Origin: Salinigranum salinum
Lineage (GTDB): Archaea; Halobacteriota; Halobacteria; Halobacteriales; Haloferacaceae
NCBI RefSeq assembly: GCF_009176545.1
Contig: NZ_VTOJ01000002.1
Location: 868,001-932,000, forward strand
Direction of reading: 5' to 3'
DNA: 64,000 nucleotides
Below are positions 1 to 32,604 of this stretch, in pieces (position 1 is the stretch's first letter; each line of letters begins with the position of its first letter). The translations under genes were made by a program, and so were the position numbers. The notes under the pieces were generated by a model, which had not been told where the DNA came from, did not search any database, and worked only from the letters and a program-made list of their open reading frames with translations.

Positions 1-1556
1 GTGTCCGCGGAGGTGACGATGAAGACGACGATGAGCCCGAGGAACAAGAAGACGAGCAGGCGGTCCAGCGGGAGCGCCGCCAGGACGGGGAAGCCGACGA
101 CGGCCTCCGAGCCGCCGTACTGCTGGACGACGGCGAGGACGTCCGCACGGCCCGTGTGCTGCAGCGAGAGGGTGGTGCCACCGAGCAGGACGAACCAGGC
201 GACGGTCGCGGCGGAGGTGGCGACGCCGCCCGTAAAGACGACGGTCCGGATCCGCCGGCCCTTCGAGAGCGCCGCGAGGAAGAGGCCGGCGAAGGGCGCC
301 CACGAGAACCACCACGACCAGTTCCAGACGGTCCACGCGGCCACCCACGGGCCGTCGAAAAAGAGGCTCATCGGGAGGAAGTTCAGGGTGTACGAGCCGA
401 GCGCGGCCGAGCCGGCGTCGGCGACGAACGAGCGAGGTCCGACGCCGACGAGCAAGAGCGCGAACAGCGCGAACAGCCCGAGCGTCACTCCCGAGATCCG
501 TCGGATCCCCCGCTGGACGCCGCTCTCGGCGGAGACGACGTAGATGAGCGTCAGCCCGGCGACGAAGACGACGGGGCCGACGTCGCCGTAGGCGACGCCC
601 CACTGGAAGTCGATGCCGGCGAGGAACTGCTGGGCGACGAAGGCGATCGAGGTGGCGATCCCGCCGATGGTCGCGAAGATGGCCAGCACGTCGACGACCG
701 TCGCCCACCGGCTCCGGAGTCCGTCGACGCCGAGGAACGGGGCCAGGATGGTCGACACGCGGAGGGGAGCGCCGAGCTGGTAGGTGAAGTAGGCGATGGG
801 AACGCCGACGACGAGGTAGGCACACCACGCCGAGAAGCCCCAGTGGAACAGCGCGTACGTGAGCGCGGCCACGACCGCGGCGTCCGATCGGGGGGCGACG
901 TCGAAGAACGGCGGCGGGGTCCCGTAGTGAAAGAGCGCCTCGGCCGGCCCCCAGAAGACGATGCCGGCGGCGATGCCCGCGGTGAAGAACATCGCGAAGT
1001 ACGTCGGGTAGGTGTACGTCGGTTCGGCGTCCGGGCCACCGAGTCTGATCTCGCCCCACGGCCCGAGGAGCAAGAAGAGACAGTAGCAGACACAGAGGAA
1101 CATCGCACCGAGAAACAGCCAGCCTAGCTCCTGAAGCAACAGGTTCTCGACGGTGCTCACGGCGCGTCCCGTCGTGGTGGGGAGTACGATCTGTGCGAGG
1201 AAGAACAGCACCAGCACGGCGACCGGCACGCCGAACGTCGCCGGGTCCTGCCGCCCGACGAACGACCGGAGCGCCGCGAGCGGCGAGAGGTGACGCACCC
1301 TGAGCAGATACGGGGCGTCCCTGCGCCGCCCCTCGTCGGCCTCGGCGTCGTTCGCGAGCGGGAGGAGCGCGAGATACGCCAGGCCGGAGCCGAAGAAGAG
1401 GAGTGCGGCGACCAGCAGGGCGCGCCCGGGAATCACGGAGCCGACGAACACCGGAAAGAAGAACACCGTGACGACGAGCACGCCCGAGAGCGTACACACC
1501 GGGACGAGCGTCTTGCGGACGGCGGCCTCGACCGCGTCGTACCCGTGCGTCGCCAT
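1..1556 (-). CDS. BCCT-family transporter (betaine/carnitine/choline type), 3' end cut by window
   Basis: A secondary transporter of the BCCT family, which moves quaternary-ammonium or sulfonium osmolytes across the membrane. About 518 codons are visible from the ATG at 1556; the C-terminus lies beyond position 1. Many hydrophobic segments are present, with the family's tryptophan-rich segment (WNWSWWFSWAPF) and an early helix MFFTAGIAAGIVFWG, where the betaine/Na+-type motif MGIGLMF is replaced by IAAGIVF. That difference from the second BCCT at 5584-7380 suggests another substrate or coupling ion. A TATA-like AATATATCC on the minus strand (1581-1589) sits 26-30 nt before the ATG, so a leaderless transcript is likely. 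The potassium channel gene is divergent. Family call is firm; substrate is unknown. Confidence 0.85.
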   Translation of the reverse strand, partial: MATHGYDAVEAAVRKTLVPVCTLSGVLVVTVFFFPVFVGSVIPGRALLVAALLFFGSGLAYLALLPLANDAEADEGRRRDAPYLLRVRHLSPLAALRSFVGRQDPATFGVPVAVLVLFFLAQIVLPTTTGRAVSTVENLLLQELGWLFLGAMFLCVCYCLFLLLGPWGEIRLGGPDAEPTYTYPTYFAMFFTAGIAAGIVFWGPAEALFHYGTPPPFFDVAPRSDAAVVAALTYALFHWGFSAWCAYLVVGVPIAYFTYQLGAPLRVSTILAPFLGVDGLRSRWATVVDVLAIFATIGGIATSIAFVAQQFLAGIDFQWGVAYGDVGPVVFVAGLTLIYVVSAESGVQRGIRRISGVTLGLFALFALLLVGVGPRSFVADAGSAALGSYTLNFLPMSLFFDGPWVAAWTVWNWSWWFSWAPFAGLFLAALSKGRRIRTVVFTGGVATSAATVAWFVLLGGTTLSLQHTGRADVLAVVQQYGGSEAVVGFPVLAALPLDRLLVFLFLGLIVVFIVTSAD

Positions 1557-1580
1557 ACCACACGTATCGACGCCGACAGG

Positions 1581-1640
1581 GATATATTGTCGGTCGAGAC
1601 CCCGCGACGGGGAGTCGACGTTCGCCGCGGAGCTTTTATA
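1581..1640. promoter_or_regulatory. Divergent promoter pair for the BCCT transporter and RCK channel genes
   Basis: In the 109-bp gap between the divergent starts there are two AT-rich elements. AATATATCC on the minus strand (1581-1589) is placed for leaderless transcription of the transporter (start 1556). TTTATA (1635-1640) lies 26-31 nt before the GTG at 1666 of the channel gene. The spacing fits archaeal TATA boxes. The elements are seen directly; their use is inferred. Confidence 0.6.
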
Positions 1641-1665
1641 GCCGTCCGTCAGTAGATCCGACACC

Positions 1666-2982: not shown

Positions 2983-3067
2983 CGGGGCGGTGTGCCGCGC
3001 CGAGATCCGTCGTTCGCTCCCAAAGCTATTTACTTTTGATAGGAAAACAGATACCGGGCGACAACAG

Positions 3068-3508: not shown

Positions 3509-3599
3509 CCCGGGTCCGTCCCGACCCCTGGAGGCGTCGGTCCACGACACGGTCGTCGCGGCGGTGACGACCGGGTCGACCGCCAGCGTGGCGTCCCGG

Positions 3600-5583: not shown

Positions 5584-7380
5584 TCAGTCGCCGCTCGGCG
5601 TGTCGTCGCCCTCCCGTAAGCTCGTCACCATCTCGTCGCCGGAGGTGATCACCTCCACTTCGCCCTCGGCGGTGAGTTCCTCGATACGCTGGGCGAACGT
5701 GTCGGATTCGAGGATCTCGTACTCGTTGTCGAGGCCGAGGTAGACCGTGTAACACATCAGGCACAGGATCACCGCGAACGGTAACCCGGTGGTGATCGAC
5801 GCGGTCTGCAGCGCGCTCAGCCCGCCGCCGAACAGCAGGACGGCCGCGACGGCGCCCTCGGTGACCGCCCAGAAGACGCGCTGGGCCTTCGGGACGTCGT
5901 GCTTGCCACCCGAGGTGAGGTGGTCGATGACGAGCGACCCCGAGTCCGAGGAGGTGACGAAGAACGTCACCACGAGGAACGTCGCGAGGATGCCCGAGAC
6001 GGCCCCGAGCGGGAACTGCGCGAGCATGGAGAACATCGCGATGGTCTGGCCCTGGTTCGCCACGGCGGAAGCGATGCCGCCGCCGCCGACGAGTTCGACC
6101 CAGAGCGCCGAGCCGCCGAAGGTCGACAGCCAGAGGAACGAGAACAGCGCCGGCAGGAACAGCACGCCGAGCACGAACTCGCGGACCGTCCGGCCCTTCG
6201 AGATGCGCGCGATGAACATCCCGACGAACGGCGACCACGCGATCCACCAGCCCCAGTAGAAGATGGTCCAGCTCCCCATCCAGCCCTTGACCGTGTAGCC
6301 GCCGAGGGCGGCGGTGCCCCCGACGGTGCCGGTGAAGAAGCTGAGCGTGAGCAGGTTGCCGAGGTACGCGGCGAGGCCGTCGGCCATCGTGCCGAAGATG
6401 AACACGGTCGGGCCGACGATGAGCATGAAGCCCAGCAGCGCGAACATCAGGTAGAGGTTGAGCGTGCTCAGCCGCTTGACCCCACCGTCGAGGCCTGCCG
6501 CGACGGACGCCGTGGCGATAGCCGTGATGCCCGCGATCAGGACGACCTGCGGGATCGTCCCGGTCGGGATGCTCACCAGCCCGAGGGTGTCCCCGATCAC
6601 GAACGAGAGCCCGGTGTTCACCTGCGCGACGCCGAGCCCGAGCGACGTAGCGAGACCGAACAGCGTCGCGAACACGGTCACCAGGTCGATGACGTGTCCG
6701 GGCCAGCCGTAGATCCGTTCACCCAGGAGCGGCCAGAACACCGACCGGAACGTCAGCGGCAGGCCGCGATTGAACGAGAAGAACGCCAGTCCCAGCCCGA
6801 CGAGACCGTAGATGGCCCACGGGTGGAAGCCCCAGTGGAAGAACGTCTGCGCCATCGCGGCTGTCGCGGCGCCCGCTCCGCCACCGGCAGCGTCGAACGC
6901 GGGTGGGACGACCATGAAGTCCGAGGCGTCGGAGCCGAAGTGCCACATCGGCTCGGCCACGCTGAAGAACATGAGGCCGATCCCCATCCCGGCGCTGAAC
7001 AGCATCGCCATCCAGGAGAAGTCGTCGAACTCCTTCTCGGCTTTCACGCCACCGATTCGGATACTCCCGTACTTGCTGATGGCGAAGTAGACGATCGCGA
7101 TGATGAAGACGTTCACCGCGAGGATGTAGAACCAGCCAAAGGTCGTGTTGATGAAGTTAAATATCGCGCTGTACGCCGCCGACGCCTGTTCGCCGAGGAG
7201 GATGGTGACCGCGACGAACAGTGCGATGATCACGAGGGCGATCGGGAAGACGACCGGGTGGACGTCGAACCCCCATTTGACGATGTTCGTGTCCCCGGGT
7301 TCCCGATCGGAGTCCGGGTGGAACAGCTCCACCTGGAGCCCGTCGGACATCTCCCCGGTGAGCTCTTCGTCGTTAGCCAT
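5584..7380 (-). CDS. BCCT-family transporter, probable Na+-coupled glycine betaine (or DMSP) uptake
   Basis: A complete 598-residue BCCT carrier from ATG 7380. It shows the Na+/betaine-type motif MGIGLMFF in the unwound helix and the tryptophan box YWGWWIAWSPF that lines the substrate site in BetP-like carriers, with twelve hydrophobic segments between acidic ends. The C-terminal tail (about residues 545-598) is hydrophilic and could sense osmotic state as in BetP, though it is acidic rather than basic. A Shine-Dalgarno GGAGGT (7386-7391) lies 5 nt before the ATG, implying a leadered mRNA. It lies in front of a glycine-betaine-type demethylation block, so its cargo may be nutrient as well as osmolyte. 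Confidence 0.9.
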   Translation of the reverse strand: MANDEELTGEMSDGLQVELFHPDSDREPGDTNIVKWGFDVHPVVFPIALVIIALFVAVTILLGEQASAAYSAIFNFINTTFGWFYILAVNVFIIAIVYFAISKYGSIRIGGVKAEKEFDDFSWMAMLFSAGMGIGLMFFSVAEPMWHFGSDASDFMVVPPAFDAAGGGAGAATAAMAQTFFHWGFHPWAIYGLVGLGLAFFSFNRGLPLTFRSVFWPLLGERIYGWPGHVIDLVTVFATLFGLATSLGLGVAQVNTGLSFVIGDTLGLVSIPTGTIPQVVLIAGITAIATASVAAGLDGGVKRLSTLNLYLMFALLGFMLIVGPTVFIFGTMADGLAAYLGNLLTLSFFTGTVGGTAALGGYTVKGWMGSWTIFYWGWWIAWSPFVGMFIARISKGRTVREFVLGVLFLPALFSFLWLSTFGGSALWVELVGGGGIASAVANQGQTIAMFSMLAQFPLGAVSGILATFLVVTFFVTSSDSGSLVIDHLTSGGKHDVPKAQRVFWAVTEGAVAAVLLFGGGLSALQTASITTGLPFAVILCLMCYTVYLGLDNEYEILESDTFAQRIEELTAEGEVEVITSGDEMVTSLREGDDTPSGD

Positions 7381-7928: not shown

Positions 7929-9176
7929 TCACGCGTTGAGATGTCTGACCTCGTAGCCGTGGCCACGGACAGAGCGGATAATGGCGCGCGCCTGGCCGGC
8001 ACCGCTCGTCTCGATAGTGAACACCAGATACGCCTCGCCGACGTCGAGTTCCGGCGACGACCGGTCGTGTCTGACATCCTGGATGTTGGCGCCGTGGTCG
8101 GCGACGACCCCCGACAGCTCCTGGAGTTTTCCGGGCTGGTCGTCGATCCGCACCCGGAGGCGGATGAGCTGTTCGCGGTCGGTGAGCGCGTGGACCAACA
8201 CCGTCTGGAGCATCGTCATGTCGAGGTTTCCGCCGCAGAGCAGCGGCATCACCGTCTCGCCCTCAACGTCGAGCCCGTCGCTCAGAAGCGCGGCGACGCT
8301 CGCGGCGCCAGCTCCCTCGACCACCTGTTTGGCGCGTTCGAGCAGCAGCAACACCGCGCGGGCGATCTCGCCGTCGGTGACGGTGACGATCTCGTCGACG
8401 TGGCGCTGGATCAACGAGAGCGTCAGCTCCGAGATCCCACCGGTCGCGATGCCGTCGGCGATCGTGTCGACCGAGTCCAGCGTCTGCGGCACGCCCTTGT
8501 CGAGGCTCCGGGGCACGGTCGCCGCGCCCGACGCCTGGACGCCCACGATCCGCGTCTCGGGCGAGAGTTCGGCGAACGCGGTGGCGATGCCCGAGATGAG
8601 GCCACCGCCGCCGATGGGGACGATGACGGTGTCGACCGAGGGCAGATCCTCGTGCATCTCGATCCCGAGGGTACCCTGCCCCGCGACGATGGCGGGGTCG
8701 TCGTACGCGTGGACGAACTGCACCGTCTCGTCGTCCTCGACGAGCCCCTGCGCGTAACTCATCGCCTCGCGGAAGTCCTGACCGACGAGTTCGACCGTGG
8801 CGCCGTAGTCGCGGGTGGCGTCGACCTTGGTCTGTGGTGCGGTCTTCGGCATGACGATGGTGGAGCCGACGCCGAGCTTCGTCGCTGCCAGCGCCACGCC
8901 CTGCGCGTGGTTGCCCGCGCTGGCCGCGACGACCCGCTCGACGGTGAGCTCGTCGTCCGTCTTGAGCTGTTTGATCTTGTTGTACGCCCCGCGGGTCTTG
9001 AACGAGCCCGTCCACTGGAGGTGTTCCATCTTCAGGTGCACCTCGCCGCCCGTGAGTTCGTCGAGCGACGTGCTCCGCTCCACCGGCGTCCGTTTCACCA
9101 CCGTCTCGTCGTCGAACCGGCCGCGTGCCCGTTCGATGTCCGCGAACGAGACGGCGTCCGAGAGGTCCTGTGGCAT
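7929..9176 (-). CDS. ilvA: Threonine/serine ammonia-lyase, PLP-dependent, with ACT domain
   Basis: Threonine dehydratase family, 415 residues from ATG 9176. The PLP lysine is in GSFKTRGAYN (Lys60), the phosphate-binding glycine loop is PIGGGGLISG, and SAGNHAQGVA is the substrate-binding Asn loop. From about residue 330 an ACT-like domain begins (LIRLRVRIDDQPGKL). Enzymes of this length with one ACT domain are often the catabolic type acting on threonine and serine. Next to a sarcosine/dimethylglycine module it could drain serine made from glycine to pyruvate, but biosynthesis of isoleucine is equally possible. Confidence 0.88.
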   Translation of the reverse strand: MPQDLSDAVSFADIERARGRFDDETVVKRTPVERSTSLDELTGGEVHLKMEHLQWTGSFKTRGAYNKIKQLKTDDELTVERVVAASAGNHAQGVALAATKLGVGSTIVMPKTAPQTKVDATRDYGATVELVGQDFREAMSYAQGLVEDDETVQFVHAYDDPAIVAGQGTLGIEMHEDLPSVDTVIVPIGGGGLISGIATAFAELSPETRIVGVQASGAATVPRSLDKGVPQTLDSVDTIADGIATGGISELTLSLIQRHVDEIVTVTDGEIARAVLLLLERAKQVVEGAGAASVAALLSDGLDVEGETVMPLLCGGNLDMTMLQTVLVHALTDREQLIRLRVRIDDQPGKLQELSGVVADHGANIQDVRHDRSSPELDVGEAYLVFTIETSGAGQARAIIRSVRGHGYEVRHLNA

Positions 9177-9350: not shown

Positions 9351-11900
9351 TCAGCGGACGATCTTGTCCCGTCCGGGATCGAACAGGGGTTCCTCGCGCA
9401 CCGTCGCGTCGTACGTCTCGCCCTCACACAGGATCTGGACCGCCGTGCCGTGTTCGGCGTGTTCTGCGGGGAGATAGGTGTAGGCGATCGACTCGCCGAT
9501 GCTGTAGCCGAAGTCGCCGGCCTGCACGTAGCCGACCGCGTCGCCGTTCTTCAGCACGGGCCGCCCGCTCAGCACGATGTCGGTCGAGTCGTCGAGCGTG
9601 AGCGGGACGATACGGTTGTCGACGCCCGCCGCCTTCGCCTCCGCGAGCGCCTCCTTCCCGATGAAGTCGGTGTCCATGTCGACCGCGAACGGCAGCCCGG
9701 CCTCGTACGGGTTGGCGTCGGTGTCGATGTCGGTCCCCCAGAGCCGGTACCCTTTCTCGAGACGCATCGACTCCAGTGCCCCGCCGCCCATCGGTCGCAC
9801 GTCGAGGTCCTGTCCGGCCTCCCAGAGTGTCTCCCAGAGCGTCGCGCCGTACTCGACGGGTGCCCACAGCTCCCAGCCGAGTTCGCCCACGTACGACACC
9901 CGTAGCGCGAGGACGGGCACGTCGCCGACGTGGATCTGTTTGGCACGGAAATACGGGAAGCCGGCGTTCGAGACGTCGGCGTCCGTGACCCGCTGGAGGA
10001 GGAGCCGCGACTTCGGCCCCCACAGGCCGACGGTCGAGCGTCCGCCCTCCTCGACCGTGACCGAAACGGACGACGGTGCGTGTCGTTTCAGCCAGTTGCC
10101 GTGGATGCCCGGCGAGTTCCCCCCGCCGGTCGTCACCACGTACTCCTCTTCACCCACTCTGACGACCGTCACGTCCGCGAGGATGTTGCCGCCCTCGTTC
10201 AACAGCAGCGAGTACCGGACCTGCCCCACGTCGATGTCGATGTCGTTCGAACAGGTTCGCTGGAGGAACGCCCTGGCCCCCTCGCCCGAGACCACGATCG
10301 ACGAGAACGAGGTCATGTCGAACATCGAGACGTGCTCGCGCGTGTGGAGGTGCTCGGCACCCTCGATCGGCGAGCGGTTGATCGCCTGCCAGCCGTCTTG
10401 GTCGGGGATCCGGTCGTCGTACCGCTCGACGAGGTCTTCGTTCGACTCGTACCACTGCGCCGACTCCCAGCCACCCGACTGGACGAAGTTCGCGCCGAGT
10501 TCCTCTTGATGGGAGTAGAAGGGACTCCGACGGAGGCCGCGGTGGTCGTCGGGCTGCCAGCGCGGCTCGACGATGCTGTACACCTGTCGGTACTGTGTCG
10601 CCCCGCGATCGACGAAGTACTCCTTGTTCCCGGCGTGCGGCTCGAACCGGTCGACGTGGATGCCACCCGTGTCGACCGGGCCCGACGGGAGCTTCGGGAC
10701 GCCCGTCTCCATCCACTCCGCGAGGATCCTGCCGTAGCCGCCCGAGTGGGTCCACCAGATCGCCAGCGCGGTCCACAGGCCGTCGACCTGCGACGTCTCG
10801 CCCAGGACCGGCATCCCGTCGGGCGTGAACACGAAGATGCCGTTCTCGGTGACACGGAACGACTTCCCCTCGGTCGCCGGCAACAGCTCCTCGAACGCCT
10901 GCTTCGCCGATTTGTCGCGGTCCGGGTGGGTGGGTCGCTCCCAGTGCTCGGTCGTGAAGTCCCGCACCGACGCCTGTCGCTGCTCCGTGTTCGTGCCCAT
11001 GGCGTCGGGATCCACGGAGAGCGTCTCGTGGTTGTACGAGCCCAGACCGATGGCGTCGCCGTGCGTCCGGAAGTACAGCGAGTGGTCCTGGTCGCGACCG
11101 ACGGGGCGGTGCGGGGCCTTCCCCATGTACTCCGCGATGCGGTGGTCGCCCGGGATCTCGGCGTCGGAGAGGTCGGCGCGGGGGTTGGGGTCCGCGCCCG
11201 CCAGCTCTTCGAGGGGTTCGGTGACGGCGTACTGGTGTTCGACCGGCGCGATCGGGAGATCGAGTCCCGCCATCTTCCCCGTCTGGTAGCCCCAGTTGTT
11301 CGTCGCGATCACGCACCGTTCGCAGTCGATCGTGCCACGGTCGGTCTCGACCGCCGTGATCTCGCCCCCGTCGACCACGAGGTCCTCGACCGACGTGTGA
11401 CCGTAAAAGCGCGCGGCCGACTGGTCGATGTACCACTGGAGCGCGGCGACGCCGTCGACGCGGCCGTCGGTCGGCGAGTAGTAGCCGCCGAGGATCTCGT
11501 CGGCGTTCACCAGCGGCAGTTTCTCCTGAACCTCCTCGGGCGTCAGCAGCTGGGGATCGGGCAGCCCGTAGGCGGTTGCGTTCTCGACGCGGCGCTGGAG
11601 GAAGTCCATCCGCTCGGGGGAGCGGGCCATCTCGATGCCGCCGACCTCGTCGTACACCCCGGCCTCCTTGAGGAGGCGGCTGGTGTAGTGGGCCGTCTTC
11701 GTCTGGAGCTTCGACGGCGACGTCTGGAACATGATGCCCGGCGCGTGGGTCGACGAGCCGCCGGTCACGGGGAGCGGCCCCTGGTCGACGACGACGACGT
11801 CCTCCGCGCCGAGCTCGGAGAGGTGGTACGCGACGCTACAGCCGACCGCACCGGCGCCGATGACGACCGTCTTCGCCCGCGACGGAAGCGTTCCGCTCAT
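9351..11900 (-). CDS. FAD-dependent oxidoreductase-GcvT fusion (dimethylglycine/sarcosine dehydrogenase family), copy A
   Basis: An 849-residue protein of the family that oxidatively N-demethylates dimethylglycine or sarcosine, donates electrons to ETF and transfers the one-carbon unit to THF. The N-terminal DAO domain has GxGxxG at residues 15-20. His52 in the GGSSTHAPG segment lines up with the histidine that binds FAD covalently in mammalian DMGDH. A linker domain follows at about 385-440, then a GcvT domain (about 460-740, with NEGGNILAD) and a GcvT C-terminal barrel. The ATG abuts the TAG of copy B with no gap, so the two are translationally coupled in one operon. Which methylamine each paralogue uses cannot be decided by eye. 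Confidence 0.85.
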   Translation of the reverse strand: MSGTLPSRAKTVVIGAGAVGCSVAYHLSELGAEDVVVVDQGPLPVTGGSSTHAPGIMFQTSPSKLQTKTAHYTSRLLKEAGVYDEVGGIEMARSPERMDFLQRRVENATAYGLPDPQLLTPEEVQEKLPLVNADEILGGYYSPTDGRVDGVAALQWYIDQSAARFYGHTSVEDLVVDGGEITAVETDRGTIDCERCVIATNNWGYQTGKMAGLDLPIAPVEHQYAVTEPLEELAGADPNPRADLSDAEIPGDHRIAEYMGKAPHRPVGRDQDHSLYFRTHGDAIGLGSYNHETLSVDPDAMGTNTEQRQASVRDFTTEHWERPTHPDRDKSAKQAFEELLPATEGKSFRVTENGIFVFTPDGMPVLGETSQVDGLWTALAIWWTHSGGYGRILAEWMETGVPKLPSGPVDTGGIHVDRFEPHAGNKEYFVDRGATQYRQVYSIVEPRWQPDDHRGLRRSPFYSHQEELGANFVQSGGWESAQWYESNEDLVERYDDRIPDQDGWQAINRSPIEGAEHLHTREHVSMFDMTSFSSIVVSGEGARAFLQRTCSNDIDIDVGQVRYSLLLNEGGNILADVTVVRVGEEEYVVTTGGGNSPGIHGNWLKRHAPSSVSVTVEEGGRSTVGLWGPKSRLLLQRVTDADVSNAGFPYFRAKQIHVGDVPVLALRVSYVGELGWELWAPVEYGATLWETLWEAGQDLDVRPMGGGALESMRLEKGYRLWGTDIDTDANPYEAGLPFAVDMDTDFIGKEALAEAKAAGVDNRIVPLTLDDSTDIVLSGRPVLKNGDAVGYVQAGDFGYSIGESIAYTYLPAEHAEHGTAVQILCEGETYDATVREEPLFDPGRDKIVR

Positions 11901-14492: not shown

Positions 14493-14515
14493 GTGGCAGG
14501 TGCCAAGGAGTGCCC

Positions 14516-14561
14516 GGTTAAATTCGTTTCCCGCCACTACTGGCGGGGTTTAATACCCGCC
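14516..14561 (-). promoter_or_regulatory. Promoter and operator-like inverted repeats of the demethylase operon
   Basis: The TATA candidate AATTTAAC (about 14517-14524, minus strand) serves the start at 14492. Directly upstream, CCCGCCA (14530-14536) and TGGCGGG (14541-14547) form a perfect 7-bp inverted repeat with a 4-bp spacer. A third half-site CCCGCC (14556-14561) pairs with GGCGGG across an AT-rich GTTTAATA. This looks like a multi-site operator overlapping the BRE region. A further palindrome TGGCA-GG-TGCCA lies at 14494-14505, right before the start codon. The repeats are seen; regulation is inferred. Confidence 0.5.
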
Positions 14562-14647
14562 ATGAGCACGCGTCGTGGTACCAGAACCCACACACGGCGA
14601 CGGTGTGGTCGTGGGACGCCCGCGAACGAGCGTCCCGGTCCCGTCGC

Positions 14648-15628: not shown

Positions 15629-15629
15629 C

Positions 15630-22565: not shown

Positions 22566-22722
22566 GGTGGAGACGGCCGTCCGCGGGGACGAGTGGGTCA
22601 CAGACGACCGACGAGACCGACCGAACGGTGAGAAGCCGGCGTCCGCGGTGCAACCACGTCGTATCCGGGATCGGATACGTGTACTAACATTGATGATGGC
22701 GTCAGGGGAACGTCTCCCCGAA

Positions 22723-24441
22723 ATGTCAGACACGAGTGAGAGCGAGTCGTCGATACCCACGGACTACGAGATCGCACAGTCGGTCGAGAAAGAACACATC
22801 GCGGACGTCGTCGAACCGTTCGGGCTCGGCCGCGACGACCTGGAGCTGTTCGGCGAGCACAAGGCCAAGGTGAAGTTCGACGCGATCGAGCGCATCAAGC
22901 AGGAGAGCGACGAGAAGGGGAAACTCGTGCTCGTCACCGGGATGACGCCGACGCCGATGGGTGAGGGCAAGACCGTCACCACAGTCGGGCTCGGGCAGGC
23001 GTTCAACCAGCTGGGGAAGAAGGCGCTGATCGCCATCCGCGAGCCGTCGCTCGGGCCGGTGTTCGGCGTCAAGGGTGGCGCTGCGGGCGGCGGCTACTCG
23101 CAGGTGCTCCCGATGGAGGACATCAACCTCCACTTCACGGGCGATCTCCACGCGCTCACCTCGGCGCACAACCTGATCTCGACGATGCTGGACAACCACA
23201 TCAAGCAGGGCAACGAGCTCGACATCGCGGTCAACTGGGTCGAGTGGCCCCGCGCGATCGACATGAACGACCGCGTGCTCCGGGAGACGGTGATCGGGCT
23301 CGGCGGCGACGTCACGGGTGTCCCGCGCGAGGACGGCTTCATCCTCACCGCGGCCTCGGAGATGATGGCCGTACTGTGTCTCGCCGACAGTATCGCCGAC
23401 CTGAAAGAGCGCGTCGCTCGCATCATCGTCGGCTACGACGAGGACGGCGGCCCCGTGACGGTGGACGACATCGACGCGACGGGTGCGGTCGTCATCCTCC
23501 TGAAAGAGGCGCTCAAACCCAACGTGGTCCAGACCATCGAGGGGACGCCCGCGTTCGTCCACGGCGGTCCCTTCGCCAACATCGCTCACGGCACCAACTC
23601 GCTCATCGCCGACGAAGTCGCCTCGCGGCTCTCGGACTACCTCGTCACCGAGGCCGGCTTCGGTTCCGACCTCGGGGCCGAGAAGTTCATGAACATCGTC
23701 TGCCGGTTCGGCGAGATGTCGCCCGACGCGGTCACGCTCGTCTCCTCCGTCCGCGCGCTGAAGTACCACGGGCAGGACATGTGGCCGCCGGACCTCGACG
23801 CACTCAAGGCAGAGGACGTCGACGCCGTCCAAAGCGGGTTGGAGAACCTCGACAAACACGTCCGCAACCTCCAGCAGTTCGGCGTGCCGGTCGTCGTCGC
23901 CGTCAACCGCTTCCCGGGCGACACCGACGCCGAGGTCGAGGCCGTCGTCGACCACTGTGAAGAGGAACTGGGGATCCGGGCGGCCGAGTCGAACCTGTTC
24001 CAGCACGGCGGGGAAGGCGGCATCGACCTCGCGGAGAAACTGGTCGACGCCGCCGAATCGGAGTCGTCGTTCGAGCACCTGTACGACCTCGACGTCTCGA
24101 TCAAGGAGAAGATCGAGACGATCGCGACCGAGATCTACGGTGCCGACGGCGTGAAGTACCACGGCGACGCCGAGGACGACATCGAACGCCTCACCAACCT
24201 TGGCTTCGACGACGTCCCGGTCTGTATGTCGAAGACGTTCCACTCGTTCAGCGACGACCCGAGCCTCAAGGGCGTCCCCGAGGGGTGGACGCTCGAGGTC
24301 AAGGAAGTGTACCCGTCGGCGGGTGCGGGCTTCCTCGTCGCGCTCACCGGTGACGTGCTCACGCTGCCGGGTCTCCCGAAGGAACCGGCCGCGGCCAACA
24401 TGGACATCGACGACGACGGGACGATCTCCGGCCTGTTCTGA
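22723..24441 (+). CDS. fhs: Formate-tetrahydrofolate ligase
   Basis: Fhs of 572 residues from ATG 22723, close to the usual 555-560. It interconverts formate plus ATP plus THF with 10-formyl-THF. The ATP loop TPTPMGEGKT is at residues 75-84, and the signature REPSLGPVFGVKGGAAGGG plus DINLHFTGD follows. ATG codons at 22693 and 22696 are in frame and add only ten residues. Within a methyl-oxidising block the reverse direction would release formate and conserve ATP by substrate-level phosphorylation. Biosynthetic formylation is the alternative. Confidence 0.93.
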   Translation: MSDTSESESSIPTDYEIAQSVEKEHIADVVEPFGLGRDDLELFGEHKAKVKFDAIERIKQESDEKGKLVLVTGMTPTPMGEGKTVTTVGLGQAFNQLGKKALIAIREPSLGPVFGVKGGAAGGGYSQVLPMEDINLHFTGDLHALTSAHNLISTMLDNHIKQGNELDIAVNWVEWPRAIDMNDRVLRETVIGLGGDVTGVPREDGFILTAASEMMAVLCLADSIADLKERVARIIVGYDEDGGPVTVDDIDATGAVVILLKEALKPNVVQTIEGTPAFVHGGPFANIAHGTNSLIADEVASRLSDYLVTEAGFGSDLGAEKFMNIVCRFGEMSPDAVTLVSSVRALKYHGQDMWPPDLDALKAEDVDAVQSGLENLDKHVRNLQQFGVPVVVAVNRFPGDTDAEVEAVVDHCEEELGIRAAESNLFQHGGEGGIDLAEKLVDAAESESSFEHLYDLDVSIKEKIETIATEIYGADGVKYHGDAEDDIERLTNLGFDDVPVCMSKTFHSFSDDPSLKGVPEGWTLEVKEVYPSAGAGFLVALTGDVLTLPGLPKEPAAANMDIDDDGTISGLF

Positions 24442-26344: not shown

Positions 26345-28525
26345 ATGAGCGTCGACGGCGGTGAACTCGAACGGACCCTGGGGTTCCTCGAGGCGATGAC
26401 CCTGGGCGGCGGGACGATGATCGGGGCGGGGATCTTCATCCTCCCGGGGATCGCGGCGCAGAACGCCGGCCCGGCGAGTTCGATCTCCTATGCCATCGCC
26501 GGCTTCGTCGCCCTGCTGGCGGCGCTGTCGCTCTCGGAGCTGGCGACGGGGATGCCGATCGCCGGGGGGAGCTACCACTACGTCAACCGGGCGCTCGGGA
26601 GCCTCTTCGGGAGCGTCGTCGGCTGGGGGATGTGGACCGGCCTCATGTTCGCGAGCGCCTTCTACATGATCGGCTTCGGGCAGTACATCGTCGAGCCGGT
26701 CCCCTTCCTCGACGGCCGGGTGTTCGTCGTCCTCCTAGGCCTCCTGGGGCTGGCGCTGCTCCTCGGGGTCAACTACTACGGGACCGAGGAGTCGAGTTCG
26801 CTCCAGAACGTCATGATCGGGGCCGAGACCGCCGTCATCCTCGTCTTCGTCGCCGTCGGCGTCTTCTTCATCGACCCGGCGAACCTCGAGCCGTTCGCCC
26901 CCACCGGCGCGACCGGGATCGTCGCCACGACGGGCATCGTCTTCATCTCGTTTCTCGGCTTCGAGATCATCGCGACGGTGGCAGGCGAGATCAAGAATCC
27001 GAGTCGGATCATCCCGCTGTCGATGATCCTCTCGGTCGTCCTGGTCACCCTGCTGTACGTGCTCGTCATGCTCGTCGCCACCGGGGTCGTGACGATCGAC
27101 GTCCTGGCCGCCTCACCCATTCCGGTCGCCGACGTGATCAGGGTGTATCTGGGCCCGATCGGCGCGGTGTCGATCGTGTTCGCCGCGATTATTGCGGCCA
27201 TCTCGAGCTCGAACTCGTCGGTGCTCGCCGCCTCGCGCGTCATCTACGCCATGGGTCGGGACGGCATCGTGAGCGAGTGGCTGAACGCGAGCCACCCGCG
27301 CTTCTTCACCCCACACAGGGCGATCGTGGTCACCGGTGGCCTCATCGCCATCCTCGTCTCGATCGGGCTCGGCGTCGACGCCATCATCTCGCTGCTGGCG
27401 GAGGCGGCGAGTTTCAGCTTCCTCGTCTCGTACTCGCTCGTCCACGTCTCGCTGGTCGTGTTCCGGCGCGCCGACCCCGACGAGTACGAGCCGTCGTTCA
27501 GACTGCCCACCCCGATCTACCCGGTAGTCCCGATACTCGGGGTCATCCTGTCCCTCGTCGTCGTCTCGCAGATGGCACCCATCATCGTGCTCGTCGGGAC
27601 GGGTATCGTCGCCCTGGGCGTCGTCTGGTACGCCGTCTACGCCAGGGGACGCACCGTCGGCGAGGGGCTGCTCCGCGAAGCCCTTCGGAGAGAGCCGACC
27701 GACGTCTACCGGGTCGTGGTTCCCGTGTCGAACCCGGAAACCCAGCGGGGGCTCCTCCGCCTCGCGGCGGCCAGCGCACACGCCAACGCCGACGCGGGAA
27801 CGCCCGAACTCGTCGCGGTCAACGTCGTCCACGTCGAACACCCCTCGCCGTTACAGAACGTCGAGTCCGAGCGGGTCGGCCACCAGCGCGACCTCCTCGC
27901 CAACGCGCAGGAGTTCGCCGCGGAGATGGACGTCCACCTGCGAACGCGGGCAGTCGTCGCCCCCGACACCGGACAGGCGATACTGGACGTCCTCGACGAG
28001 GAGGACGCCGACGAACTGCTCGTGGGCTGGGACGGCACGCTCGGTCGTGACGGCCACGTCTTCGGGGAGACGCTCGATACGGTCGTCGAGCGCGTCCCCT
28101 GTGACGTCTCGGTCGTCACCCTCGGGGACGAGACGATCGGGACGCCGCTGGCGCTGGTCGCCCCCGGGCCGAACGCGTCGGCGATCGTCCGGCGCGCGGT
28201 CGAGTTCGCGACCGTCGACGGCACGGTGCCGACCCTCCTGACGGTCCGGCCACCGCGAACCGACGAGGCGGAGGCGACCCGCCAGGGGCGGGCGTTCGTC
28301 GAGGAGGTCGCGGAGGCGGCCGAACTCAACCCCGACAAGTACGAGATCCGGGTCGTCGTCGACGACGACGCCGAGTCGGCGATCCTGGCGGTGATCGACG
28401 AGTACGACACCGTCTGCGTCGGGCTCTCCCAGCGATCCGAGCGCCTCGGCGTGCCGTACGGCGCGATCACGGAGGGCGTCGTCCGGGAGGCCCCGGGCAC
28501 GGTCGCACTGATACGGGGGTCGTGA
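26345..28525 (+). CDS. APC-superfamily amino acid permease fused to two Usp-like domains
   Basis: A 726-residue protein. Residues 1 to about 440 are an APC permease with the first-helix motif GGGTMIGAGIFILPG and some twelve hydrophobic segments. The cytoplasmic C-terminal part holds two Usp-like units (about 450-590 with VYRVVVPVSNPETQRG, and about 590-726 with GTPLALVAPGPNASAIVRRAVEFA). Such permease-Usp fusions are common in haloarchaea, and the Usp part is thought to modulate transport. Substrate is probably an amino acid or amine. The upstream Usp gene is likely part of the same unit. Confidence 0.85.
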   Translation: MSVDGGELERTLGFLEAMTLGGGTMIGAGIFILPGIAAQNAGPASSISYAIAGFVALLAALSLSELATGMPIAGGSYHYVNRALGSLFGSVVGWGMWTGLMFASAFYMIGFGQYIVEPVPFLDGRVFVVLLGLLGLALLLGVNYYGTEESSSLQNVMIGAETAVILVFVAVGVFFIDPANLEPFAPTGATGIVATTGIVFISFLGFEIIATVAGEIKNPSRIIPLSMILSVVLVTLLYVLVMLVATGVVTIDVLAASPIPVADVIRVYLGPIGAVSIVFAAIIAAISSSNSSVLAASRVIYAMGRDGIVSEWLNASHPRFFTPHRAIVVTGGLIAILVSIGLGVDAIISLLAEAASFSFLVSYSLVHVSLVVFRRADPDEYEPSFRLPTPIYPVVPILGVILSLVVVSQMAPIIVLVGTGIVALGVVWYAVYARGRTVGEGLLREALRREPTDVYRVVVPVSNPETQRGLLRLAAASAHANADAGTPELVAVNVVHVEHPSPLQNVESERVGHQRDLLANAQEFAAEMDVHLRTRAVVAPDTGQAILDVLDEEDADELLVGWDGTLGRDGHVFGETLDTVVERVPCDVSVVTLGDETIGTPLALVAPGPNASAIVRRAVEFATVDGTVPTLLTVRPPRTDEAEATRQGRAFVEEVAEAAELNPDKYEIRVVVDDDAESAILAVIDEYDTVCVGLSQRSERLGVPYGAITEGVVREAPGTVALIRGS

Positions 28526-28599
28526 CCGGCCGGTTCTGACCAGAAATTTACCCACATCCGAGCCAAAATTTTTGAGGGTCGAGCACGAAACGAGAGACA

Positions 28600-28809: not shown

Positions 28810-29703
28810 TCAGGGCAGGTCGACCGGCACGTCTGCCTGCAGACTGGCCGCCTTCACCGTGTTGTACAGCAACATCGTGATCGTCATCGGGCCGACGCCG
28901 CCGGGAACGGGCGTGATGACGCCGGCCTTCTCCTTCGCGGAGTCGAAGTCGACGTCGCCGACGAGTTCGTACCCCTTCTCGTTGTCCGCGTCGACGCGGT
29001 TCACGCCGACGTCGATCACGGTTGCGCCCTCCTTGATCATCGAGCCGTCGACGAGACCGGGGTAGCCCGTCGCGGCGATGACGATGTCCGCCTGGCGGGT
29101 CTTCTCGCCGAGGTCCTGGGTTCGAGAGTGACAGACGGTCGTCGTCGCGTTGCCGCCCGGTGCCTTCTGGATCAGCAGGTTCGCCATCGGCTTGCCGACG
29201 ATGTCCGAACGTCCGACGACGACCGCGTCCGTCCCCTCGGTGTCGACGTCCGCGGCCTCCAAGAGCTTCTGGACGCCGTGGGGCGTGCAGGGCTTGAACC
29301 GGGCGTCGCCGGCGACGAGGCGGCCGACGTTCTCGGGATGGAAGCCGTCGACGTCCTTGATCGGGTCGATGCTCCGGAGCACGGCCCGGGTGTCGACGTG
29401 GTCGGGGACGGGCATCTGGACGAGGATGCCGTGGACGTCGTCGCGGCCGTTGAGCGTCTCGACCGTGTCGAACAGTTCGTCGGCGGACGCGTCGGGCTCC
29501 AGTTCGTGGTGGATGCTCTCGATGCCGAGCTCCTCGCAGGCCCGACCTTTCATCGAGACGTACGTCTCACTCGCGGCGTCGTCGCTCATCAACACCGTGG
29601 CGAGACCGGGCGTCGTGCCCGCCTCGTCGAGCGTCGCGATACAGCCTCGCAGGTCGTCTCTGATCCGGTCGCCGACCGCGTTCCCGTCGAGGACGTGCGT
29701 CAC
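28810..29703 (-). CDS. folD: Methylene-THF dehydrogenase/methenyl-THF cyclohydrolase FolD (copy 1)
   Basis: A 297-residue bifunctional FolD from GTG 29703. The catalytic lysine is in TYVSMKGRACEELGI, VQMPVPDHV corresponds to the QLPLP motif, DVDGFHPENVGRL follows, the Rossmann loop is VVGRSDIVGKP and PVPGGVGPMT closes the active site. It oxidises 5,10-methylene-THF with NAD(P)+ and hydrolyses methenyl-THF to 10-formyl-THF. It is divergent from the dmdA-like gene and near metF-like and fhs, so it links MetF or dehydrogenase products to Fhs. Confidence 0.95.
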   Translation of the reverse strand: MTHVLDGNAVGDRIRDDLRGCIATLDEAGTTPGLATVLMSDDAASETYVSMKGRACEELGIESIHHELEPDASADELFDTVETLNGRDDVHGILVQMPVPDHVDTRAVLRSIDPIKDVDGFHPENVGRLVAGDARFKPCTPHGVQKLLEAADVDTEGTDAVVVGRSDIVGKPMANLLIQKAPGGNATTTVCHSRTQDLGEKTRQADIVIAATGYPGLVDGSMIKEGATVIDVGVNRVDADNEKGYELVGDVDFDSAKEKAGVITPVPGGVGPMTITMLLYNTVKAASLQADVPVDLP

Positions 29704-30192
29704 GGTCGATCACCGCCCGTCGCGTCGGAGTCTACTGGGTGTGTCACGTGTACGTTCATGATTGGCTCACCGATCCGCGCTCGCGCCGTCGATCCGATCG
29801 CCGACCGGGGCGCGGTCGCGGGGAGACAGTGTGGAATCTCCGGACGGACGGTTATGAATTGAGGGGATTGCCTGGCTCGGGTGTTTATCCGGGGCGCACA
29901 CCACCGACGGCGACCCGCGACGCGAGCGTGTGGTCGGCGGGACGCGGGCGAGGGGCCGACGGGGGAGCGCGGGCGAGAGGCCGACGTCGCCCGCCGACGG
30001 ACGCCGTCGAGGTGACGCGACCGGACGGAGCCGACAGCGACCGGAGGTTGGCGGGCGAAACCGCCCGACGACGACGGCGTCGACGGGGGTGGTAACGTCG
30101 GTCGACTGGCGTGCGCGGAGAGCGTCTCTTTATATAAGTGCGCACTACCTGAGGTCCACCATTATTAGTACACGGATGTTTGTTCGGAACCG
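29704..30192. other. 489-bp gap between folD and the dmdA-like gene
   Basis: No gene is apparent. A near-identical 18-bp direct repeat, GCGGGCGAGGGGCCGACG at 29944-29961 and the same with one change at 29969-29986, lies in a very GC-rich centre. The right end carries the promoters of the dmdA-like gene. Confidence 0.55.
30129..30168 (+). promoter_or_regulatory. Two TATA elements upstream of the dmdA-like gene
   Basis: TTTATATAA (30129-30137) and TTATTAG (30162-30168) precede ATG 30193. The proximal element, 25-31 nt away, would give a leaderless mRNA. The distal one is the stronger match and would give a leader of about 30 nt. Two promoters would allow differential use; this is inferred. Confidence 0.55.
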
Positions 30193-31581
30193 ATGTCAGA
30201 GAACGAAGGGCAACTCACGGAGCCAGAGCACCTGAACCATCCGAGCGTCGACCAGTCGGATCGAGTCCTCCCACGAAATCTGCGGCAGTCCGGCGATCCG
30301 GGCATCGAGATGCTCGTCTCGACCCGAGTCAGGAAATCGCCGTTCTTCCACAAGTCGTTCGTCGAGAACGGCGCGTGGCGCGCGACAGTGTACAACAGAC
30401 TCTACCACCCCCGGGGCATGCTGAAGCCGGAAGAGGGAGGGATGATGAAGGAGTACGACGCGCTCGTCAATCACGTGACCCTGTGGGACGTAGCCGTCGA
30501 GCGACAGATCTGCGTGAAGGGGCCCGACGCGGAGGACCTCGTCAACTACGTCATCACGCGCGACGCGACGAAGATCGAGCCGATGCACGGCAAGTACGCC
30601 ATCCTCTGTAACGAGAAGGGTGGCATCCTGAACGACCCCGTGCTCCTCCGGCCCGAAGAGGACGAGTTCTGGTTCTCTATCTCCGACTCCACGCTGATGC
30701 AGTGGCTCGAGGGTGTCAACGTCGGCATGGACTTCGACGTCGAGATCGACGAGATCGACGTCGCGCCGATGCAGGTGCAGGGTCCGAAGTCGACCGACGT
30801 GATGGTCGAAATCGTCGGCGAGGAAGTCCTGGACATCCCGTACTACGGGCTGATGGAGGCCGAGATCAACGGCGTCTCCTGTCTGGTGAGCCAGACCGGC
30901 TTCTCGGGCGAGAAGGGCTTCGAGATCTACGTCCGCGACGCGTCGAAGTACGCCGAACACGTCTGGGACCCGGTCTACGAGAGTGTGAAAGAGCACGGTG
31001 GGATGCAGGTCGCGCCCGCTCACCACCGCCGCATCGCCGCCGGCATCCTCTCGTGGGGCCAGGACATGGACCACGAGACGTCGCCGTTCCAGGTCAACCT
31101 CGGCTACCAGGTCCCCGACGAGAAGGAGGCCGACTACATCGGCAAGGAGGCCCTCGAGGCACAGAAAGAACAGATCGAGAACGGCGACTACCCGTTCGTC
31201 CACAAGCTCGTCGGACTGAAGTTCGCGGGCGAACCCGTGCGCGACTACGCCCCGGACTTCTGGCTCATCTCCGACCCCGACACGGGCGAGGAGTGCGGCT
31301 ACGTCACGTCGCCGTGGTACAACCCCGAACTCGAGACCAACCTCGCGCTCGGCTTCGTCCCGGCCGACAAACTCCAGGCCGACACCGACGCGCTGCTCGA
31401 CGACGAGATCTACGACACCGAAGTGGGAACTGAGTTCCAGATCCACCTGCCGGACGAGTACGCCGAGGAGCCGGGTGAGCCGGTGTACGCGAAGGTGTCG
31501 AAGGTGCCGTTCAAACCCTCGGTGAACCCCAGCGCACGCGAACAGGCCAAACTGCACGCCAAGGAAGACGCCGAGGAGTAG
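30193..31581 (+). CDS. GcvT-fold demethylase of the DmdA type (DMSP or related osmolyte, THF-dependent)
   Basis: A 462-residue GcvT-fold protein. It resembles bacterial DmdA, which moves a methyl group from dimethylsulfoniopropionate to THF, giving methylmercaptopropionate and 5-methyl-THF. Shared landmarks are WDVAVERQ (98-105), RDATK, NEKGGILNDPV (140-150, with the GcvT-type Asp148), FWFSISDS, VQGPKS and GFSGEKGFEIYV. It is about 90 residues longer than Pelagibacter DmdA (369), with a 40-residue N-terminal and a longer C-terminal extension. The MetF-like gene follows on the same strand. DmdA relatives with other substrates exist, so glycine betaine or another methylated onium compound is possible. 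Confidence 0.65.
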   Translation: MSENEGQLTEPEHLNHPSVDQSDRVLPRNLRQSGDPGIEMLVSTRVRKSPFFHKSFVENGAWRATVYNRLYHPRGMLKPEEGGMMKEYDALVNHVTLWDVAVERQICVKGPDAEDLVNYVITRDATKIEPMHGKYAILCNEKGGILNDPVLLRPEEDEFWFSISDSTLMQWLEGVNVGMDFDVEIDEIDVAPMQVQGPKSTDVMVEIVGEEVLDIPYYGLMEAEINGVSCLVSQTGFSGEKGFEIYVRDASKYAEHVWDPVYESVKEHGGMQVAPAHHRRIAAGILSWGQDMDHETSPFQVNLGYQVPDEKEADYIGKEALEAQKEQIENGDYPFVHKLVGLKFAGEPVRDYAPDFWLISDPDTGEECGYVTSPWYNPELETNLALGFVPADKLQADTDALLDDEIYDTEVGTEFQIHLPDEYAEEPGEPVYAKVSKVPFKPSVNPSAREQAKLHAKEDAEE

Positions 31582-31637
31582 TCCCGTCGGCTGCTCCCGA
31601 TTCGTGAACCGGCGCGACGACGACCGCGGTCGCCGCA

Positions 31638-31645
31638 TTTATAAA
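31638..31645 (+). promoter_or_regulatory. TATA element of the metF-like gene
   Basis: TTTATAAA lies 99-106 nt before ATG 31744, so transcription should begin near 31668 and leave a leader of about 75 nt. An in-frame GTG at 31654 is too close to the TATA to be translated. The gene therefore has its own promoter besides any readthrough from the dmdA-like gene. Confidence 0.5.
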
Positions 31646-31743
31646 CACCACAGGTGACCGGACGGTACTGTCTTCACCACGGAACCGCTACTGCGAACAA
31701 GGACCGGCGGCTGGGCGACCACGACCGCGGGAACAGGAACATC

Positions 31744-32604
31744 ATGTCACTCACGTCACGTTCGAAGGCGACGACGGAAGGGGTACAGCGACTGCTCGGG
31801 AAGCCGAAGTTCGAGCTGATGCCGTTCGACAGTTTCGGCGGGCAGATGACACACCTGCCAGAGGGGGCGACGGTGACGATCACCGCGTCGCCGACGCTGG
31901 GCATCGCCCCGACGATCGACTGGACGGAGAAAGCGGCCGCAGAGGGGTTCGAGGTCGTCCCTCACCTCGCCGCCCGCTACGTCGAGAGCGAGGAGCACCT
32001 CGAGGAGATCGCACAGCGGATCACGGCGGCGGGGGTGACGCGGATCTTCGTCCCCGGCGGCGAGCGCGAGGAGCCGGCCGGCCCGTACGAGTCGGCGTAC
32101 GACCTGCTCGTGGCGCTCGACGACCTCGGCTACGAGTTCGAGGAGGTCGGCATCACCGGCTACCCCGAGGGCCACCACTTCGTCGACGACGAGACGATGG
32201 CCGAGGCGATGGCGAAGAAGGAGCCGTACGCCACCTACATCGTCACCCAGATCTGCTACGACCCCGAGACCGTGGTCGAGTGGGTCGACGAGATCCGCGA
32301 CCGGGGCGTCGAGTTACCCGTCGAGGTTGGCATCCCGGGCGTCATGAAGTACCAGCGTCTGCTGGGCATCTCGCAGAAGGTCGGCGTCGGCGACTCGATC
32401 GGTTTCCTCCGGAAGACTACCGGCGTCGTCGACTTCGTCCGACAGCTCGTCGGCTCGCGCGGGAAGTACACGCCCGACAAGCTCATCGACGGGCTCGCCC
32501 CCTACACCGACGACCCCCACTACCGGATCCAGGGCGTCCACATCTACACGTTCAACCAAGTGCCCGACACCGAGGCGTGGCGCCAGGAACGGCTCGGGGA
32601 GTGA
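31744..32604 (+). CDS. Methylene-THF reductase-like protein (MetF family)
   Basis: A 286-residue TIM-barrel protein of the MetF family, FAD-linked enzymes interconverting 5-methyl-THF and 5,10-methylene-THF. Matching parts include EVVPHLAARYVES, RIFVPGGEREEP, VGITGYPEGH, YIVTQICYDPETVVEWVDEIRDRG and VEVGIPGVM. The loop that carries the FAD-associated Asp in bacterial MetF (RGD) reads GGERE here, so flavin chemistry or specificity may differ. Placed after the DmdA-type gene it would oxidise the methyl-THF formed there. Methionine synthesis is the alternative role. Confidence 0.8.
   Translation: MSLTSRSKATTEGVQRLLGKPKFELMPFDSFGGQMTHLPEGATVTITASPTLGIAPTIDWTEKAAAEGFEVVPHLAARYVESEEHLEEIAQRITAAGVTRIFVPGGEREEPAGPYESAYDLLVALDDLGYEFEEVGITGYPEGHHFVDDETMAEAMAKKEPYATYIVTQICYDPETVVEWVDEIRDRGVELPVEVGIPGVMKYQRLLGISQKVGVGDSIGFLRKTTGVVDFVRQLVGSRGKYTPDKLIDGLAPYTDDPHYRIQGVHIYTFNQVPDTEAWRQERLGE

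Follow-up and report, generated by a model that had tools for sequence, protein, structure and literature searches.

The window analysed here is a 64,000-nt stretch of the haloarchaeon Salinigranum salinum (C2:868001-932000, in a five-contig genome of 4.69 Mb), and it carries a gene island that is probably a catabolic pathway for glycine betaine via folate-linked demethylation. The first step would fall to a DmdA-like protein of the GcvT family. With a confidence only a little above even, we propose that this protein represents a new class of enzyme, a single GcvT-fold glycine betaine demethylase that would pass the methyl group directly to tetrahydrofolate (THF) without cobalamin, homocysteine or oxygen, that would replace GbcA in most haloarchaea with dimethylglycine-oxidase-like enzymes, and that would be tied to a MetF oxidising methyl-THF. 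The proposal builds on the gene families, their clustering, their co-inheritance and the alternation of the DmdA-like gene with a GbcA-like Rieske gene, all of which we observe.

Co-inheritance and alternation of the DmdA-like and GbcA-like genes

We searched haloarchaeal genomes for the DmdA-like protein, the MetF-like protein, the FAD-GcvT enzymes (similar to dimethylglycine/sarcosine oxidases; the island has three, FG1, FG2 and FG3) and a GbcA-like Rieske protein. There were two rounds, the first with 97 genomes and the second with 292 that contain those 97, and we count the 195 new genomes apart. E-value limits in the first and second round were 1e-60 and 1e-100 for FAD-GcvT, 1e-50 and 1e-80 for Rieske, 1e-60 and 1e-100 for DmdA-like, and 1e-30 and 1e-60 for MetF-like; in the second round the number of candidates scored for each genome was lower (3 for FAD-GcvT). 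A FAD-GcvT count means any FG1, FG2 or FG3 type that matches the FG2 query, and searches for formate-tetrahydrofolate ligase (Fhs) covered the 97 genomes. Individual genomes are labelled G and fetched loci L.

Among the 97 genomes, the DmdA-like gene occurs in 21, MetF-like in 22, FAD-GcvT in 27, Fhs in 39 and GbcA-like in 9. All 21 DmdA-like genomes also carry MetF-like, FAD-GcvT and Fhs genes, and in these genomes the distance from the MetF-like gene is at most 30 kb to a FAD-GcvT gene in 21/21 cases, to Fhs in 19/21 and to the DmdA-like gene in 17/21. Fhs is present in none of the five genomes that have the GbcA-like gene only. The GbcA-like Rieske matches in 9 of the 97 genomes led to the idea that this gene alternates with the DmdA-like one. 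The 292 genomes include 69 with DmdA-like, 72 with MetF-like, 100 with FAD-GcvT and 48 with GbcA-like genes. Every one of the 69 DmdA-like genomes has FAD-GcvT (Fisher 6e-43) and MetF-like (Fisher 5e-64), the latter against just one of the 29 GbcA-only genomes (G264). The 100 FAD-GcvT genomes divide into 54 with DmdA-like only, 29 with GbcA-like only, 15 with both and 2 with neither (G053, G197), for a Fisher avoidance of 5e-12. The same division recurs in the 195 new genomes, which had no part in suggesting the alternation (36 DmdA-like only, 24 GbcA-like only, 12 both, 1 neither; p 2e-9). By genus, FAD-GcvT is found in 33, of which 18 have DmdA-like only, 7 have GbcA-like only, 3 are DmdA-like with some genomes also GbcA-like, 3 are GbcA-like with some also DmdA-like; in each of the remaining 2 there is a genome that lacks both. 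Genomes without FAD-GcvT account for four of the GbcA-like matches (G090, G245, G262, G280), at only 45-53% identity.

The two genes would leave the methyl group in different forms. GbcA yields dimethylglycine and formaldehyde (PMC12478193), and a DmdA-type reaction yields 5-methyl-THF (PMC5395565). The MetF-like gene tracks the DmdA-like gene and not the GbcA-like one, as expected if one route makes methyl-THF, which would be hard to use as fuel without an oxidising MetF, and the other makes formaldehyde. The pattern fits a DmdA-like protein that stands in for the betaine monooxygenase. The window genome itself has no match to the GbcA-like Rieske gene at E 1e-50, and none to PF06253, the family of the MtgB-type corrinoid demethylase, at E 1e-30.

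The DmdA-like, MetF-like and FAD-GcvT proteins

The DmdA-like protein scores 244 bits against the DmdA equivalog profile NF009133, below the cut-off of 410, and 159 bits against the GcvT profile. Its best match by sequence in the PDB is 3tfh, the DmdA of P. ubique (PMC7487153), an enzyme that acts on dimethylsulfoniopropionate (DMSP). Nineteen orthologues share 75-84% identity with the window protein. A tree of 20 rows places seven haloarchaeal ones, including the paralogue from the window genome, in a 100/100 clade of their own; next to it stands a group made up of three annotated DmdAs and three homologues from bacteria that are uncharacterised. Phe237 is invariant in all 20 aligned DmdA-like sequences, the window's included, and by our own mapping of residue numbers it aligns with a DMSP-contact Trp described in PMC7487153; the position is Tyr in three annotated plasmid DmdAs and Trp in two uncharacterised roseobacter homologues (Phaeobacter, Loktanella). 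It is the alternation with the GbcA-like gene, together with gene context, that points to betaine as the substrate, and not the binding site.

A second DmdA-like paralogue of the window genome, 70% identical, lies at L085:9576-10943 (C1:2140087), and in the 20 kb around it no other gene is labelled as matching the betaine-type genes of the window. Homologues also occur on bacterial plasmids. Three from roseobacters (L088, L089, L091), two of them typed conjugative, carry one in a repeated cassette with genes for an Lrp regulator, a GcvT-like protein, OsmC, an enoyl-CoA hydratase and an acyl-CoA synthetase. On a Lichenihabitans plasmid (L090:10660-15227) the homologue adjoins genes for a methylenetetrahydrofolate reductase (MTHFR), purU and folD; this set is a bacterial parallel of demethylase plus one-carbon-oxidation genes.

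The best PDB match of the MetF-like protein is 7xg9 (E 2e-29; the next solved MTHFR follows at 3e-10), which is presumably the enzyme of Sphingobium SYK-6. Glu24 and Gln169, presumably the counterparts of MTHFR catalytic residues, do not vary among the 19 aligned sequences. According to a review, the MTHFR subfamily to which the SYK-6 enzyme belongs prefers the oxidation of methyl-THF and acts together with a LigM-type demethylase (PMC13001107). A further MetF-like gene of the window genome, 70% identical to the first, is separated by 3.9 kb from another LigM-like gene (L086:9561-10421 and 14276-15631, C1); here this MetF type is again paired with a likely folate demethylase. Inside the window, 54226-56286 on the plus strand encodes a further GCV_T protein, similar to LigM/DesA of the aromatic O-demethylase family, whose N-terminus is extended by about 235 aa; it falls below both equivalog cut-offs (454 of 800 and 406 of 580 bits), and the open reading frames beside it resemble by eye enoyl-CoA hydratase, acyl-CoA dehydrogenase and TRAP transporter genes. 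Across the genome, the GCV_T profile matches ten times, five of them inside the window.

FG1, FG2 and FG3 each combine DAO, FAO_M, GCV_T and GCV_T_C domains in one chain, and each matches the Arthrobacter dimethylglycine oxidase 1pj5 over nearly its full length, with E-values of 1e-169, 9e-177 (residues 13-862) and 5e-144, respectively. All three fall short of the NCBIfam sarcosine oxidase cut-offs. The counterpart of His225 of the dimethylglycine oxidase is kept in all three; at the position of Tyr259, FG2 has Tyr, FG1 has Phe by motif (SLYFRTHG) and FG3 has Glu. FG3 may differ in substrate preference or electron acceptor. In five genomes (G064, G052, G017, G001, G007) the sole FAD-GcvT match is FG3, in an FG3-EtfB-EtfA set, and for that reason FG3 and EtfBA together may take over from FG1 and FG2.

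Gene content of the island and its conservation

We called gene families by Pfam and NCBIfam profile matches, and gene starts are approximate. Every family that the preliminary description had named is present by these profiles. In window coordinates, the features are:

1-1556, extending left of the window to about -360, minus strand: BCCT carrier 1 (PF02028, 429 bits; the start codon is our choice)
5584-7380, minus strand: BCCT carrier 2 (PF02028, 594 bits)
7929-9176, minus strand: threonine/serine ammonia-lyase, PALP plus ACT (TIGR01127, 454 bits, above the cut-off of 378.75)
9351-11900, minus strand: FG1, dimethylglycine/sarcosine oxidase-like FAD-GcvT enzyme (four domains as above)
11901-14492, minus strand: FG2, dimethylglycine/sarcosine oxidase-like FAD-GcvT enzyme (same domains)
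14648-15628, minus strand: EtfA (PF00766, PF01012)
15630-16400, minus strand: EtfB (PF01012)
16561-19092, minus strand: FG3, divergent FAD-GcvT enzyme adjoining EtfBA (same domains)
19356-21845, or to 22091 from an earlier start, minus strand: FolCP, a folylpolyglutamate synthase-dihydropteroate synthase fusion (PF02875, PF08245, PF00809)
22693-24441, plus strand: Fhs, formate-tetrahydrofolate ligase (PF01268, FTHFS, 832 bits; NF010030, 832 bits, above the cut-off of 652)
28810-29703, minus strand: FolD (PF02882, PF00763; NF010764, 550 bits, above the cut-off of 477)
30193-31581, plus strand: DmdA-like GcvT-family protein (GCV_T PF01571, 144 bits)
31744-32604, plus strand: MetF-like (MTHFR-like) protein (PF02219)
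34724-35620, plus strand: second FolD paralogue (PF02882, PF00763)
38093-39265, plus strand: homologue of the X3 family (tblastn, 42% identity)
40397-41059, plus strand: HTH_10 (bacterio-opsin-activator type) regulator (tblastn, 60% to cluster regulators)

The two BCCT carriers of the preliminary description are both real, one of them cut by the left edge: the Pfam match of carrier 1 is at C2:867787-869235 on the minus strand, that is, at about -213 to 1235 of the window. A permease at 26345-28525 was considered as the second BCCT and rejected, because it belongs to the APC permeases and carries Usp domains. For carrier 2, the best NCBIfam profile is a glycine betaine uptake BCCT, at 520 bits and below the cut-off of 650. 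FolCP exceeds the cut-offs of TIGR01499 and TIGR01496 when the longer frame, to 22091, is used. A Rid-like gene lies about 1.6-1.9 kb left of the window. Because this gene, the second FolD, X3 and the HTH_10 regulator flank the genes first listed, the island may extend from about -2 kb to 41 kb. One member of the HTH_10-type cluster regulator family matches PF04967. A search limited to the window and its flanks found neither a serine hydroxymethyltransferase (SHMT) nor a formate dehydrogenase.

A scan of named genomes with FG2 gives 54 loci, all drawn by their FG2 match, of which 53 are haloarchaeal; the bacterial one (L062, a 29% match) is left out of the counts, and two loci (L032 and L033) belong to one genome. 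The fetched stretches reach at most 10 kb to each side, and contig ends shorten some of them. Counting matches of at least 40% identity, which drops one DmdA-like, one EtfA, one BCCT2 and two Usp matches, we find in the 53 loci FG2 in 53, FG1 in 48, the dehydratase in 44, MetF-like in 42, BCCT2 in 33, DmdA-like in 29, FolCP in 17, Fhs in 10, and EtfA, EtfB, FG3 and FolD in 5 each. The set recurs across Halobacteria, and its homologues are co-inherited and mostly clustered; the scattering that the preliminary description had named as a refutation is not seen. Further families recur in these loci: X3 (36), an AstE/AspA-like protein (24), HTH_10 (23), SHMT (16), the GbcA-like Rieske protein (9), dihydrofolate reductase (DHFR; 9), Rid (8), a formate-dehydrogenase-like protein (7) and MttB (2). 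Pfam, run on one representative each, confirms SHMT, Rieske plus ring-hydroxylase, MTTB, HTH_10, AstE/AspA, molybdopterin oxidoreductase and L-PSP (Rid); we assigned DHFR by eye, in line with the annotation in the Haloarcula hispanica record. Plasmid pHH400 of that species has, within about 22 kb, DHFR, DmdA-like, MetF-like, X3, AstE-like, FG2, FG1, ilvA, Usp, BCCT, folP and Fhs genes, with four small hypothetical genes interspersed between DHFR and Fhs. The locus tags in H. hispanica are HAH_RS18290 for DmdA-like, HAH_RS18285 for MetF-like, HAH_RS18270 for FG2 and HAH_RS18265 for FG1. Near Fhs in relatives there are formate-dehydrogenase-like and Rid genes.

X3 in relatives is often beside the MetF-like gene. 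It adjoins DmdA-like clusters and also GbcA-like clusters without DmdA-like (L036, L038, L041, L087). An alignment of 24 members has two stretches that look by eye like helix-turn-helix; in Pfam, the window protein is without a match, and just 5 of the 24 match TrmB, all weakly (best E 0.013). Judged by these stretches, X3 is probably a DNA-binding regulator. We rejected it as an enzyme partner of MetF because its best conserved stretches resemble helix-turn-helix.

Two other families stand near the set in relatives. An AstE/AspA-type deacylase gene, in 24 of the 53 loci (for example, L009:2879-3826), is placed between X3 and FG2 in 23; it has no role in the proposed pathway, and the window with its flanks gives a weak partial match only. 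A gene of the MttB family (PF06253) lies about 0.1-5.6 kb from Fhs in 5 of the 97 haloarchaeal genomes (G001, G007, G017, G061, G063; L073, L075, L080, L083). All five also have the DmdA-like and MetF-like genes, and G001 and G007 have a second MttB elsewhere. The MttB gene near Fhs possibly serves an extra methylated substrate.

The proposed pathway, its rivals and known systems

For the pathway as a whole, we infer each reaction and substrate, as well as the directions of Fhs and MetF. The BCCT carriers would import betaine. The DmdA-like protein would move one betaine methyl to THF, without cobalamin and without oxygen, giving dimethylglycine and 5-methyl-THF, and the MetF-like flavoprotein would oxidise methyl-THF to methylene-THF. 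FG1 and FG2 (and FG3 with EtfBA) would take dimethylglycine to sarcosine and then to glycine, each methyl passing to THF as methylene-THF. FolD, and Fhs in reverse, would turn surplus methylene-THF into formate and ATP, and FolCP, with DHFR in relatives, would keep up the folate pool. SHMT would join glycine and methylene-THF to serine, and the dehydratase would convert serine to pyruvate, releasing ammonia; a Rid protein would remove the enamine. This run from glycine through serine to pyruvate is likely because an SHMT gene lies nearby in 16 of the 53 related loci, and it accounts for the dehydratase.

Several observations weigh against the betaine pathway. Fifteen genomes have both the DmdA-like and the GbcA-like gene, so the replacement is not strict; in three of them (G130, G132, G248) the GbcA-like match consists of a part-length stretch at 76% and a nearly full one at 51-53%, and G192, counted as GbcA-only, has part-length matches only. 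Besides the two FAD-GcvT genomes with neither gene, three genomes (G057, G222, G264) have the MetF-like gene without DmdA-like. The Fisher values overstate independence because the genomes are related. The GbcA-like protein scores 135 bits against a GbcA equivalog cut-off of 670, so its own function is one that we infer. FG3 has no Tyr259 counterpart, and therefore its substrate may differ. Betaine did not enhance the growth of Haloquadratum walsbyi in the account of PMC3102087; metagenome-assembled genomes named H. walsbyi (L028, L048) have FG2, FG1, the dehydratase, BCCT2 and MetF-like, with no DmdA-like gene in the fetched stretch. In Halomicroarcula, BCCT carriers and choline-to-betaine genes are read as osmoprotection in PMC8600319, and the strain of that paper, F13, carries this cluster at L049. 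The choline-to-betaine genes reported there could feed the betaine pathway.

The strongest rival, which we nevertheless consider unlikely, is that the DmdA-like protein demethylates another onium compound or methylamine (for example, choline, carnitine, proline betaine or trimethylamine) and that the FAD-GcvT enzymes use imported dimethylglycine or sarcosine, with the same folate one-carbon oxidation. BCCT specificity is unreadable from sequence and the betaine-BCCT profile stays under its cut-off, MttB-family methyltransferases near Fhs in some relatives suggest that the substrate range of the cluster may be broad, and both first-step candidates are present together in the 15 genomes; however, the alternation of DmdA-like and GbcA-like among FAD-GcvT genomes is simplest if both feed dimethylglycine.

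We give less credence still to a true DMSP demethylase in an island that mixes DMSP and betaine use. The match to P. ubique DmdA and the preference for the DmdA profile over the GcvT profile speak for it. Against it, the protein misses the equivalog cut-off and has its own clade; Phe237 takes the place of the contact Trp in 20/20 sequences, though the three annotated plasmid DmdAs have Tyr; and none of the 31 families common to at least five fetched loci looks like DmdB, DmdC or DmdD, as judged from window labels, from Pfam on ten representatives or from first residues by eye. With the cut-off, the clade, the lack of a DMSP-specific family among these and the alternation with the GbcA-like gene, we rejected DMSP as the main substrate. 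The preliminary description had allowed for DMSP beside betaine in a stepwise, folate-linked demethylation with formate and ATP recovery; co-inheritance and clustering back that scheme, less its DMSP arm.

It is very improbable that the association merely reflects common descent or shared replicons, with a mobile block passed on as a unit and an alternation that is a lineage effect instead of a functional replacement. Some islands are on megaplasmids, as in H. hispanica pHH400, and genera are mostly uniform, but the DmdA-like gene is 27-172 kb from MetF-like in G001, G007, G014 and G075, and on another contig in G095, and the two still co-occur; the alternation is also seen across 33 genera and again in the 195 new genomes. 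Hardly credible is a biosynthetic one-carbon supply (purines, methionine) in which the FAD-GcvT enzymes would do no more than recycle methylated glycine: FolCP, FolD and Fhs do belong to general folate metabolism, and 18 of the 39 genomes with Fhs are without DmdA-like, but the carriers, the dehydratase and SHMT fit use as food, and about three quarters of the 292 genomes lack the DmdA-like and MetF-like genes, which are therefore not a general one-carbon supply.

The betaine pathway has a precedent in part. The preliminary description knew of no haloarchaeal pathway of this form, and Anderson et al. 2011 (PMC3102087) had already noted that four haloarchaea have dimethylglycine-oxidase-like genes close to BCCT carriers, and had suggested that betaine, dimethylglycine or sarcosine is used. 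In the portion of that paper available, the proposal mentions neither a gene of the DmdA-like, MetF-like or SHMT kind nor a reaction for the first demethylation; H. utahensis, which is not among the four, could not grow on betaine. The available portions of PMC8600319, PMC6719526 and PMC5793203 report no test of betaine as a haloarchaeal carbon source. The open-access literature that we searched yielded no worked-out haloarchaeal betaine catabolic route and no description of a GcvT-fold folate-dependent betaine demethylase, and such an enzyme, predicted here from sequence, appears to be new.

Rieske-type GbcAB oxygenases need O2. They resemble the island in making dimethylglycine for the same kind of downstream enzymes, and a GbcA-like gene is present in 9 of the 53 haloarchaeal clusters; they differ in releasing formaldehyde (PMC12478193), and the window genome is without a match at the limit given above. 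SAR11 (Sun et al. 2011, PMC3160333) is like the island in its folate one-carbon carrier, dimethylglycine and sarcosine dehydrogenases, MetF, FolD, Fhs and formate dehydrogenase. There, betaine use is thought to start with betaine-homocysteine methyltransferase (BHMT) and a separate DmdA serves DMSP, whereas here a DmdA-like gene is in a betaine-type cluster. MtgBCD (Mausz et al. 2025, PMC12478193) likewise feeds a betaine methyl into one-carbon metabolism, and a MetF paralogue is strongly induced there too; it differs in using an MttB-family protein and cobalamin, of a family (PF06253) that the window genome lacks at the limit given above. Compared with the Arthrobacter dimethylglycine oxidase and mammalian DMGDH, FG1-FG3 give a near full-length match with the same domain order; the island differs in having three paralogues, with FG3 paired with EtfBA and devoid of the Tyr259 counterpart. 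The DMSP demethylase DmdA shares with the island protein the GcvT fold, is its closest solved structure by sequence, and would be expected, like it, to pass an onium methyl to THF; the differences are the score under the equivalog cut-off, the separate clade and the absence of recognised DMSP follow-on genes in the clusters. Mausz et al. name GbcAB, BHMT and MtgBCD as first steps, and the available part of their text (PMC12478193) mentions neither DmdA nor GcvT. If our proposal is true, the demethylating core of a betaine pathway based on folate is present in about a quarter of the sampled haloarchaeal species (69/292), and the enzyme of the first step adds a cobalamin-free and oxygen-free betaine demethylation to GbcAB, BHMT and MtgBCD.

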